Positions 13,581 through 26,902 of a stretch of DNA of 64,000 bases are shown in pieces. The translations under genes were made by a program, and so were the position numbers. Each line of letters begins with the position of its first letter. The first letter of the stretch is position 1. This DNA comes from Vicinamibacteraceae bacterium (GTDB taxonomy: Bacteria > Planctomycetota > Phycisphaerae > Phycisphaerales > UBA5793): positions 62,001 to 126,000 of the forward strand of contig WYBR01000028.1 of NCBI GenBank assembly GCA_011525805.1. Reading direction: 5' to 3'. Below the pieces are notes generated by a model. It worked only from the letters and a program-made list of their open reading frames with translations, did no database searches and had not been told where the DNA came from.

Positions 13581-13899
13581 CGTGACCCGAAGGCTCGGCG
13601 CAGGGGAGCGCGCCGAGGGTGGCATGGTCCCGGCCAGCAACATTAGCGGGCCGCTGCGGGCGGCGACGGTGAGTCCGTTTCCTTGATTTCCGGGCCGTCG
13701 GACGCCTCTCCGCGACCCCGTCTGCCGGGAAGTCCACGATCGGACCCACGGCCGAGCCGGCGAATTTCCTGAAAAACCCTGTGCAACCTCTTGGCGCAGA
13801 GGCCGACGTGCGCCATAATCCGAAGCACGTTCGCTGGTGGAGGCCCCGCCACCGGAACGGATCGCGCTGTATTCTGCTTTACTCAATGGAGACGCCCCC

Positions 13900-16677
13900 A
13901 TGCCGTTCCACTCCGCCGCCGCACTCACCCTCCTGGCCGCCGCCGCGTTCGCCGTTGCCGCGCCGCCCGCCGCGGTGGAATCCCGATCCCAGTCGCCGGA
14001 TCCGGTCGGTCGCGCGGTCGAGCGATTCAACCTCGGCCTGCGCGGGGTCTACTTCGTCGAGAATCGTGGGCAGTGGAGCGATGGGTCGGTCTGCTTCGGC
14101 CTCAAGTCGCGCGGCCTCGATGTTGCCTTCCGCGAGTCGTCGTTCACGATGCATCTCTCGCGCGAGTGCAGCGAGCCGGGGTGTGCCACCCCGACGAGCC
14201 GCGCCCGTGAGGATGCGGGTCTGGGCGAGGAGGGTGAGCATCCGTCCATCGACCTCCGTGTCCCATACGGCCTCGTCTCGGACTACGGCGGGCACTTCGC
14301 CGATCACCGCGTGCCGCTGTCGCGCGGTCGTCGCGCACCGCTTCCTCACGGGCGCGGCTCGTCGGGGGATCTGCTGCACCACGAAATCCGGGGCGTCGAA
14401 GACTCTGCCCCGGCGTACGAACACCTCACGCTCACCGTTTCCTTCCCCGGCAGCAACCCGGTGACCCCGCGCGGCGCGCGGGAGCAGACGGCGAAGTTCA
14501 ACTACTTCGTCGGCGGCGAGGGACGCGGCACCGCGAGCAATGTGCCGTCCTTCGGCGCGGTCGTGTACGAGAACCTCTACAACGGCATCGACCTGCTCGT
14601 GACCGGCAACGACGATGGCGTGATGAAGTACGAATTCCACTGCGCCCCGGGCGCTGATTACCCCCAAATCAGAATCCACTACGAGGGCATCGACTCGCTG
14701 TGCGTCAATGACGATGGCGATCTCGAAATCGCCACAAGTTTCGGCACGCTGCTGGATGGCGCGCCGATTGTGTGGCAGGAGGAGGATGGCTCAACGAGCC
14801 GCGCCCGTGAGGAAGCGGGTTTTTGTCAGTCCCCCGGCTCTGCTCGCGGTGAGCACGGCCGAACTGCGGGGGAGGGCCGGGGTGGTGGCGATTCAGCGAC
14901 CCGCGCCCTTGAGCAAGCGGGTTGCTCCGCCACATCAAGCGTCCACCAGAACCCGCTCCTTTACAGTCGCGGCTCGTCCGACTCGACCATCCCCGCCCGC
15001 TTCGAACTCATCGACGCGACGACCTACCGCATCGCCCTCGCCAGCGACATCGACCCGACTCGCATGTTGATCATCGATCCGGAGGTGGAGTGGATGCGCT
15101 ATTTAGGCGGCACAGGTCTTGACAGCGCAAACCAAGTGGCGACGGATCATGAAGAACACGCTTACGTCACCGGCGAGACCACGTCCTTCGACTTTGAGGG
15201 TCGCAATAACAACAGATTCGGCGGAAACGATGATACCTTCATCGTAAAGGTCGCCCCTTCCGGAGAGGTTTTCTGGATGACTTACATCGGAGGCACAGGC
15301 GGGGAGGTCGGCTTCGGACTTTCTGTTGCGCAAGGTGGCACCGTCTATGTCGCCGGAACCACCACGTCATCCGATTTCGAGGGCGCGCTGAATTCCTACC
15401 ACGGCGGGGAAAGTGATGGTTACATTGCGGCAATCGATGTGAACGGCCACATTGCCTGGATGAACTACATTGGCGGCACCAACGAGGATCGCGCGCGAGC
15501 CATCGCGATTGACTCAGTAGGACACCTCTTCGTGGCTGGCACAACCGCATCCGCGGATTTCGCCGGGCGAACAAACACTCATCATGGTGGCGTCAATGAT
15601 GCCTTCGCCCTTAGAATCCATCCCAGCGGTAATACTGAGTGGATGATCTTTACCGGCGGGGAGCTCGAAGATGACTGCTGGGCTGTCGCGGCAGATGAGT
15701 CCGGACGGGCGTTGCTCGTCGGACAAACAAATTCACATCAGTTCTTCAGTCGCACGAATCAGTATCACGGTGGACCGACGGACGCGTTCCTGACCACGAT
15801 CACCTCTTCAGGGATCCCGGCTGCGACACAATACATCGGGGGAACCGGCGAAGATGTTGCTCAGAGCGTCGCTTCTGCGATGGATGGGGTTGTCCTGGTC
15901 AGCGGGAGGACAAACTCCCTCGACATTATAAGGCATACCAACTCATATCATGGCGGGAGGGCCGACGCATTTGTCATGGCCACTCGGAATCCGGGCACGA
16001 TTCTCTGGGCGACGTATCTGGGCGGATCCGACTACGAGTACGGCAGAAGCCTCGACATTGACGAAGAGCAGAATGTCCTGGTGAGCGGGTGGACCGAGTC
16101 ACCGGACTTCGAGTGGCGCAACAACTCCCTACGCGGCATCATCGATGGCTTTGTGGCCAGATTGAACGTAACGGGTGACACACTCTGGATGACATACCTT
16201 GGAGGTGGTGGCTTCGACTGGTCTCAGTCCATCACGGTGCTCGATTCGGGCACGGCAATGATCAGCGGGTATACACATTCTTATGACTTTGAAGGGAGAC
16301 AGAACGTCTTTCATGGAGGAGGCGATGCATACCTACTCCGTATGAGCATCACGGACTCGCCGCGCCTGCTTGTCAACTCCTCATGCCCGCAGGGCGGGCC
16401 CATCCAGATTGAGTGGAGCGGCGCATCTCCTGACGGGCGCGTGGCACTGATCTATGCTCGGAACTCTGGCCGGTTTCTGATTCCGGCTCGACAGCCATGT
16501 AGCGGGCGCCGCCTCGGCCTGGGAGTGGACAGCATCAGAGTCGTGTACGATGGCAACGCGGGAACCAATGGTTCCCGCATCCTCCGAACGATCGCAGACC
16601 CCTCTGCCTGCGGCGGCTACCTGCAACTCCTCGACCTCACCACCTGCGCCACCAGCAACGTCGCACGCATCGAGTAG
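13900..16677 (+). CDS. Large secreted SBBP beta-propeller repeat protein
   Basis: 925 aa from ATG 13900 (GGAG 8 nt upstream). Signal peptide (ALTLLAAAAFAVAAPPA), then the YFVENRGQW motif of the domain that usually precedes SBBP repeats. From about residue 395 to 830 lie eight or so repeats of roughly 50 residues, each with a WMxYIGGTG-like strand, SVA/AVD, VAGTTxSxDF and H/YHGGxxDAFV pattern (e.g. YIGGTNEDRARAIAIDS, TYLGGSDYEYGRSLDID), forming a propeller. A C-terminal beta domain (SCPQGGPIQIEWSG...) resembles that of the protein at 33520. Probable cell-surface or extracellular role, ligand unknown. The N-terminal third contains five in-frame copies of a genomic repeat (see 14193-14978). Confidence 0.88.
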   Translation: MPFHSAAALTLLAAAAFAVAAPPAAVESRSQSPDPVGRAVERFNLGLRGVYFVENRGQWSDGSVCFGLKSRGLDVAFRESSFTMHLSRECSEPGCATPTSRAREDAGLGEEGEHPSIDLRVPYGLVSDYGGHFADHRVPLSRGRRAPLPHGRGSSGDLLHHEIRGVEDSAPAYEHLTLTVSFPGSNPVTPRGAREQTAKFNYFVGGEGRGTASNVPSFGAVVYENLYNGIDLLVTGNDDGVMKYEFHCAPGADYPQIRIHYEGIDSLCVNDDGDLEIATSFGTLLDGAPIVWQEEDGSTSRAREEAGFCQSPGSARGEHGRTAGEGRGGGDSATRALEQAGCSATSSVHQNPLLYSRGSSDSTIPARFELIDATTYRIALASDIDPTRMLIIDPEVEWMRYLGGTGLDSANQVATDHEEHAYVTGETTSFDFEGRNNNRFGGNDDTFIVKVAPSGEVFWMTYIGGTGGEVGFGLSVAQGGTVYVAGTTTSSDFEGALNSYHGGESDGYIAAIDVNGHIAWMNYIGGTNEDRARAIAIDSVGHLFVAGTTASADFAGRTNTHHGGVNDAFALRIHPSGNTEWMIFTGGELEDDCWAVAADESGRALLVGQTNSHQFFSRTNQYHGGPTDAFLTTITSSGIPAATQYIGGTGEDVAQSVASAMDGVVLVSGRTNSLDIIRHTNSYHGGRADAFVMATRNPGTILWATYLGGSDYEYGRSLDIDEEQNVLVSGWTESPDFEWRNNSLRGIIDGFVARLNVTGDTLWMTYLGGGGFDWSQSITVLDSGTAMISGYTHSYDFEGRQNVFHGGGDAYLLRMSITDSPRLLVNSSCPQGGPIQIEWSGASPDGRVALIYARNSGRFLIPARQPCSGRRLGLGVDSIRVVYDGNAGTNGSRILRTIADPSACGGYLQLLDLTTCATSNVARIE
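14193..14978. repeat. Five copies of a dispersed 24-bp-core repeat inside the SBBP gene
   Basis: Copies of the element 'gagccgcgcccgtgaggaagcggg' occur at about 14193-14220 (+), 14334-14364 (-), 14791-14820 (+), 14894-14931 (+, degenerate) and 14951-14978 (-, degenerate). They are translated in frame as TSRAREDAG, RAPLPHGRGSSG, TSRAREEAG, TRALEQAG and LLYSRGSS. Neighbouring residues are low complexity (Gly/Arg/Ala). The reading frame survives all insertions. The same core, differing at a few bases, makes the 9-copy array at 496-905. Confidence 0.85.
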
Positions 16678-26718: not shown

Positions 26719-26902
26719 CCCCACGCCCACGATGAGGCTTTGCGAATCGCGGTGTTCCCCACGCCCACGATGAGGCTTTGCGAATCGCGGTGTTCCCCAC
26801 GCCCACGATGAGTCTTTGCGAGTCGCGGTGTTCCCCACGCCCACGATGAGGCTTTGCGAATCGCGGTGTTCCCCACGCCCACGATGAGGCTTTGCGAATC
26901 GT
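26719..26902. repeat. 38-bp tandem array, about five copies
   Basis: Units 'ccacgcccacgatgaggc' + 'tttgcgaatcgcggtgttcc' repeat with an exact 38-bp period (acgatgag at 26729, 26767, 26805, 26843, 26881). Copies are almost identical (single changes such as gaggc to gagtc). There are no spacers, so it is not a CRISPR array. It lies between two co-directional genes, starting just after the first stop and ending 30 bp before the next ATG. Confidence 0.93.

Follow-up and report, generated by a model that had tools for sequence, protein, structure and literature searches.

REP elements read in frame within an SBBP-repeat gene and a candidate RAYT transposase nested in valyl-tRNA synthetase

Introduction

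The 64,000-nucleotide stretch of planctomycete DNA analysed here, referred to as the window, contains a gene for an SBBP-repeat protein that carries five copies of a short repeat, and a tandem array of similar units lies upstream. A preliminary description of the window had taken these copies to be one active or recently active repeat that invaded the gene five times, always in frame, and thereby added linkers to a surface protein. The locus raises the question of what kind of element these repeats are, how they come to be read as part of a protein, and which enzyme may have moved them. REPs and REPINs served by RAYT transposases, an arrangement called the REPtron, are known from Pseudomonas, E. 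coli and Stenotrophomonas (PMC3116915, PMC8266576).

Repeat copies in the window

The 23-bp core of the repeat (GAGCCSCGMCCGTGAGGRAGCGG) starts nine times in tandem at positions 510, 555, 601, 647, 693, 739, 785, 830 and 875 (span 510–897), within a plus-strand array at 498–903 that has a period of about 46 bp. A single intergenic copy that matches the core is found at 1097–1119 on the plus strand. The remaining five copies lie in the SBBP gene (13837–16677, plus strand), in which Pfam identifies DUF7948 (PF25778) and SBBP repeats (PF06739); by eye, its amino terminus resembles a secretion signal.

Site 1 in the gene is an inverted pair, 142 bp apart, with copy 1 as its left arm (14193–14221, core 14196–14218, plus strand, one mismatch, read TSRAREDAG) and copy 2 as its right arm (14335–14363, core 14338–14360, minus strand, no mismatches, read PLPHGRGSS). 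Site 2, an inter-domain linker, holds a single copy and a compact inverted pair, or REPIN. The single copy 3 (14793–14821, core 14796–14818, plus strand) has no mismatches and reads TSRAREEAG. The REPIN (14895–14978, cores 55 bp apart) joins copy 4 (core 14898–14920, plus strand, three mismatches, TRALEQAG) to copy 5, a D variant (core 14953–14975, minus strand, three mismatches, PLLYSRGSS). The same linker contains another palindromic repeat, CCCCGGCTCTG..GGGAGGGCCGGGGTG, at 14832–14884 on the plus strand, interrupted at this locus by an additional 24 bp; it has five copies in the genome (the window and contigs C6, C59, C79 and C118), two of which are in SBBP-family linkers.

The counts and positions given in the preliminary description (nine in tandem, one near 1093, and five in the gene in both orientations) were reproduced, with three of the gene copies on the plus strand and two on the minus strand. 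The claim of five separate invasions did not hold, as the copies occupy two paired or clustered sites and probably represent two to four insertion events. Codon bias was rejected as the cause of the in-gene copies: none of 300 shuffles of the gene's codons produced a core match, and the mean was 0.44 when synonymous codons were permuted with the protein left unchanged, against five observed. An Rfam search of the window matched a single tRNA and nothing else.

The repeat family in the source genome

Counted genome-wide, as the preliminary description had proposed, and with up to three mismatches allowed, the core has 97 copies in the source genome (G000; 4.54 Mb, 138 contigs), compared to a single match for the reversed control. 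Many contigs break at REP copies, as seen at the starts of C7, C14, C43, C70, C72, C85, C86, C93 and C107, so that 97 is probably an underestimate. A 14-mer within the core is present in 24 of 61 related genomes with up to 70 copies in each.

When all copies were listed with their flanks, subfamilies could be separated. Type A (GACGAGCCGCGCCCGTGAGGAAGCGGGTT) is the dispersed form, to which copies 1 to 3 of the SBBP gene and the intergenic copy at 1097 belong, and the dispersed copies carry GAGCCGCGCCCGTGAGGAAGCGGGTT. Type B consists of array units with a 46-bp period (...CCGAGCCCCGACCGTGAGGGAGCGGTCCGGCTC...), as at 496–905, and type C of tandem units of about 173 bp close to contig ends. Types D and E are variants that face type A in inverted pairs, and these A-D and A-E doublets constitute the REPINs. 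In SBBP-family genes the doublets are spaced by 46 or 55, both of which keep the frame; other spacings occur elsewhere. The array and the gene copies, originally described as the same family, are indeed related, but the array is a non-coding sister subfamily.

From these data, the repeats are REP/REPIN elements, that is, bulged hairpins often found in inverted pairs. Like other such elements they are imperfect palindromes of 20–40 nt, dispersed in high copy, that form inverted doublets and flank a RAYT with the same repeats (contig C60, within valS). The DNA hairpin, CCGC-gc-CC-gtga-GG-aa-GCGG, forms a REP-like bulged stem with modest fold z-scores (−0.9 to −1.8). Membership in the CGTC-tagged REPs (Di Nocera 2013), defined by a terminal CGTC and an 8–9 bp stem starting with A/T pairs, was rejected: here the stem, CCGC/GCGG, contains an internal loop, and the ends are CGTC or CGTT. 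As a separate observation, nine HAF-repeat/DUF3466-like paralogues of the source genome (L118, L124, L109 and six further loci) end in ...ECAISQLVVHQFE and the stop codon, and a type-E REP directly follows the stop codon in each.

Empty sites and reading frame

The syntenic SBBP gene of the congener G003, located between a DUF1015 gene and an AMP-binding gene, is without all five copies, which is the presence/absence difference that the insertion of a repeat had led one to expect. G003 provides the sole informative orthologue by synteny since the gene is missing from this place in G001, G002 and G005, and G004 retains no more than a C-terminal piece. In paralogues and relatives, the same two SBBP-family sites hold type-1 repeats, type-2 repeats (GGTAVPAV...GRDARST), other repeats, or none. 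Many SBBP paralogues carry REPINs at these two sites in the same frames, among them L095 with the same A-D REPIN at a spacing of 55.

Within the source genome, the same repeats are also found in ValRS, ProRS, NrdJ, MnmA, an M61 peptidase and a GNAT protein. ProRS contains 33 extra in-frame nucleotides (ETSRAREEAGS) that are absent from four congeners with 87–91% identity. In NrdJ, the B12-dependent ribonucleotide reductase, the loop after VSKYFRKAGVPQ holds a type-1 REPIN in the source genome and in G004, a type-2 (GTGVSPV) REPIN in G001 and another palindrome in G002, and is empty in G003. At the level of sequence comparison, in-frame insertion is demonstrated by these empty orthologous sites. 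The preliminary view of an active or recently active repeat that makes coding sequence is upheld in part: the repeat is dispersed and of a mobile type, and we infer mobility from the sites in ProRS and NrdJ that are empty in congeners. New in-frame coding sequence is added to the surface protein as suggested, but the surface gene is not a special target. Of separate note, the NrdJ of G004 (L329/L331) has a large insert, with ...HHFVANGIVVHN|C at its end, which resembles a true intein; its REPIN is in another loop.

All five SBBP copies are open, with plus copies reading TSRARE.AG or TRALEQAG and minus copies reading PLPHGRGSS or PLLYSRGSS. By a codon-usage test, more than half of the type-A copies have the same coding frame on both sides, and types B and C are almost never coding. 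Plus copies use the TSRAREEAG frame, and the frame that contains a TGA stop is used solely by variants that have TCA in its place (GAGCCGCGCCCGTCAGGAAGCGG, read EPRPSGSG). Minus copies use the PLPHGRGSS frame alone, though three frames are open. The frames in use are the most hydrophilic (GRAVY −1.59, −1.81 and −1.36, compared to −0.78, −0.07 and −0.07 for the unused frames), and we infer that the choice of frame reflects selection on the linker peptide for hydrophilic sequence. The description of the copies as always in frame is accurate for all five. This pattern is partly one of survivorship, but the strict use of the most hydrophilic frame is genuine.

A RAYT within valyl-tRNA synthetase

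Matches to PF01797 included one on contig C60 (G000:C60:893-1099) within a 1373-aa frame that proved to be valyl-tRNA synthetase with a RAYT inside. Both Pfam and NCBIfam place tRNA-synt_1 and Y1_Tnp in one ORF. The single valS gene, of about 1300 aa, thus encodes an in-frame class-3 RAYT that has no stop codon of its own. The C-terminal part of valS is on contig C87, whose first bases overlap with those of C60, and the KMSKS motif is intact; no second valS was found in the source genome.

Along the coding strand, the RAYT comes after five type-A REPs and before a single inverted type-A REP. The flanking cores are identical at 23 of 23 positions to those of copies 2 and 3 in the window (14338 and 14796). 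The REPs at the borders of the RAYT are read in the two frames that are also used in the SBBP gene, TSRAREEAG on the left and PLPHGRGSS on the right, and further in-frame REPs in the same valS read EPRPSGSG and, in tandem, GRPARTN. An encoded transposase with matching ends, which the preliminary description had suggested should be sought, is therefore present, and it is the only RAYT with type-A ends found in this genome.

The predicted model of the RAYT domain has a pLDDT of 92, and its best match in the PDB is 4er8, the structure of a RAYT in complex with a REP hairpin. For the full ValRS-RAYT fusion the model is weak (pLDDT = 62, pTM = 0.43), so the insert was placed by phmmer against 1gax instead, in the linker between residues 363 and 376 of T. 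thermophilus ValRS. The class-3 motifs NHVH, W[TA] and the Y motif YV..EQ are present in the alignment (A1), with L replacing V/I in the Y motif. The 5' foot CnGA reported for class 3 (PMC6006769) is found in types B and C, which have CCGA, but not in type A, which has ACGA.

Other RAYTs are present in the source genome. Beside the nested copy, contig C86 carries a free class-3 RAYT (L089) flanked by type-C REPs in the classic REPtron layout, and the C101 RAYT is about 1 kb from a type-B array. These two, with their related REPs, could act in trans. Since another array of this type occurs elsewhere in the genome near a further RAYT (L088), the 496–905 array need not be the source.

Nested RAYTs in related genomes

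Most of the genomes compared are MAGs. Of 50 unselected genomes (the source genome and relatives in which the linker was readable), 11 have a RAYT in the ValRS linker, and two RAYT types are represented. When loci fetched by RAYT similarity are added, this becomes 21 of 60, with 17 of the class-3 type and four of a second type, a classic RAYT with other ends. The same valS-RAYT arrangement is seen in G042 and in G032, a genome in a single contig. At the borders of the RAYT of G042 (L137) stands GAGCCGCGACCGTGAGGGAGCGG in inverted orientation, which matches the window core exactly. An alignment of the valS DNA of G042 and G030 is dominated by differing end points, and the left flank and REP ends alone were used.

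When the states of the linker (first RAYT type, second type, or empty) are placed on a ValRS tree, 15 changes are needed, and the starred branches force at least eight for the first type. Sister pairs differ: the linker is filled in G042 but empty in G030, and filled in G060 but empty in G026. The copies nested in ValRS group together on the RAYT tree (17 rows; three label changes versus 15.6 when shuffled). RAYT and ValRS distances are not correlated (Mantel r = 0.135, p = 0.18), though the distances are near saturation. These comparisons fit repeated invasion of one ValRS site, to which repeated loss would be the alternative.

ValRS is not the only host. In a survey of 80 named loci, the best of 161 and biased towards the query, the further hosts of nested class-3 RAYTs are AlaRS, DUF1156 methylases, an ISP restriction enzyme and a CTP-transferase. 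In G337, a class-3 RAYT is nested in a methylase that we take to be PglX-like from a reading of its sequence, and in G035 a RAYT of the second type is nested in LeuRS. One AlaRS ORF of 1686 aa (L310:1203-6260) has two Y1_Tnp stretches, apparently two nested RAYTs. The long-frame RAYTs of G009, G038, G023 and G016 were rejected as nests; on inspection, these are antisense or spurious open frames.

In the catalytic columns of an alignment of 82 rows, all 36 nested RAYTs retain HxH and 35 of them retain the tyrosine. Of 33 nested RAYTs, 11 have an in-frame ATG in the 40 codons upstream, compared to 35 of 45 free ones (p = 1.5e-4), and those nested RAYTs that have one may be separately initiated. 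Translated REP ends are present on both sides of the RAYT in 10 of 14 ValRS nests, five of nine AlaRS nests and four of seven DUF1156 nests.

Proposed mechanism and alternatives

Taken together, the repeats are very probably non-autonomous hairpins mobilised by a class 3 TnpA_Y1 RAYT that is itself nested in ValRS. In this mechanism, the RAYT would act on type-A REP hairpins, and the identity of its ends points to the valS copy as the enzyme. Since this RAYT is in frame and has no stop in valS, it would be made as an internal domain of ValRS, giving a fusion protein that may be active both as a synthetase and as a nuclease, and nesting would protect the RAYT. REP copies would insert into many genes. 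Those that keep the frame and are read as hydrophilic, stop-free peptides would persist where a protein has a loop or an inter-domain linker, the SBBP gene being one example, and others would persist between genes. A wider reading, on which the balance is even, is that REP-bounded RAYTs are stop-less domains in the conserved linkers of essential enzymes (ValRS, AlaRS, LeuRS) and of DNA methylases, where the frame of the essential host would protect them from loss by frameshift or nonsense mutation, and that they re-invade the same sites in a homing-like manner and seed in-frame REPINs as new linkers throughout the proteome.

The SBBP copies might instead be an old linker module that was never transposed and that spread by recombination or gene conversion between paralogues together with tandem slippage. 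Tandem arrays do exist, and the recurrence of REPINs at the same two sites and frames of many SBBP paralogues would be expected. Identical repeats are nevertheless found in unrelated genes (ProRS, NrdJ, MnmA, ValRS and the M61 peptidase), and the REP family that fills a given linker varies between paralogues. The unoccupied orthologous sites in ProRS and NrdJ largely refute paralogue spread as the only process, which leaves this account very unlikely, though gene conversion may add copies within the SBBP family.

Mobilisation by the RAYT in valS could also be questioned from the side of the enzyme. The nested RAYT may be a domesticated, vertically inherited and immobile domain of ValRS, serving tRNA or regulation for example, with the REPs as by-products or binding sites; the clustering of ValRS-nested copies on the RAYT tree and their conserved catalytic residues would suit such a role. 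This is improbable given the 15 state changes on the ValRS tree and the differing sister pairs, two RAYT clades that share one site, the uncorrelated (near-saturated) distances, and nests of the same RAYT class in AlaRS, DUF1156 and PglX-like methylases. Another account makes type B, the form of the 496–905 array, the parent, mobilised by the stand-alone C101 or C86 RAYT, with the valS RAYT as a dead-end passenger. The proximity of the C101 RAYT to its type-B array and the type-C REPs that flank the C86 RAYT speak for it, but types B and C are almost never coding and type A, which forms the ends of the valS RAYT, is the in-gene form, so that this reading too is unlikely.

Relation to known systems

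The proposed RAYT-REP system resembles the REPtron in its short bulged hairpins, inverted doublets, dispersal, HUH-Tyr enzyme flanked by the same repeats and structural match to 4er8. REPtron repeats are mostly extragenic and have a GTAG head, features that are typical of the studied REP families but not strictly required, and their RAYT is a free gene. Here, in contrast, type-A REPs are mostly coding, no GTAG was found in the repeat consensus, and the RAYT is an internal domain of ValRS. The motifs, the occurrence in Planctomycetes and Acidobacteria and the high-copy REP-like flanks are all shared with class 3 TnpA_Y1, which a study that discarded unusually long proteins as fusions or errors described as free genes encoding about 178 aa (PMC6006769).

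Rickettsia palindromic elements and other intragenic REPs (PMC3733652, PMC2996958) are likewise in-frame palindromes in tolerant loops of housekeeping genes, including tRNA synthetases. No transposase is known for these elements, and the CGTC repeats, Rickettsia forms included, are stated to have no dedicated one (PMC3733652), whereas a RAYT with matching ends, itself nested in frame, is present here. Like an intein, the nested RAYT is a selfish in-frame insert that recurs at one site of conserved essential genes. It differs in that the insert would stay in the protein and its ends are REP hairpins; by Pfam, the nested ORFs contain only host domains and Y1_Tnp and no Hint domain.

In-frame intragenic REPs, REPINs, RAYTs and class-3 TnpA are thus already known, and the recurrent nesting of a RAYT in essential genes appears to be new. 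No account of a transposase nested in a tRNA synthetase, or of RAYTs recurrently in essential genes, was found in open-access text. The locus would offer a simple case in which nesting, and not splicing, protects a selfish gene, a little-described way to inhabit an essential gene, and annotation pipelines may dismiss such nested ORFs as fusions or errors. With a candidate enzyme that has matching ends, the origin of in-gene repeats becomes testable with one ORF and a 29-mer.

Two further repeats were observed in the window. An inverted repeat, tggtggtacaggctttcgagcctgtacg..., at 1001–1061 is another palindromic element beside the REP at 1097, and 38-bp tandem units at 26719–26901 are present in 4.8 copies that are 97% alike.
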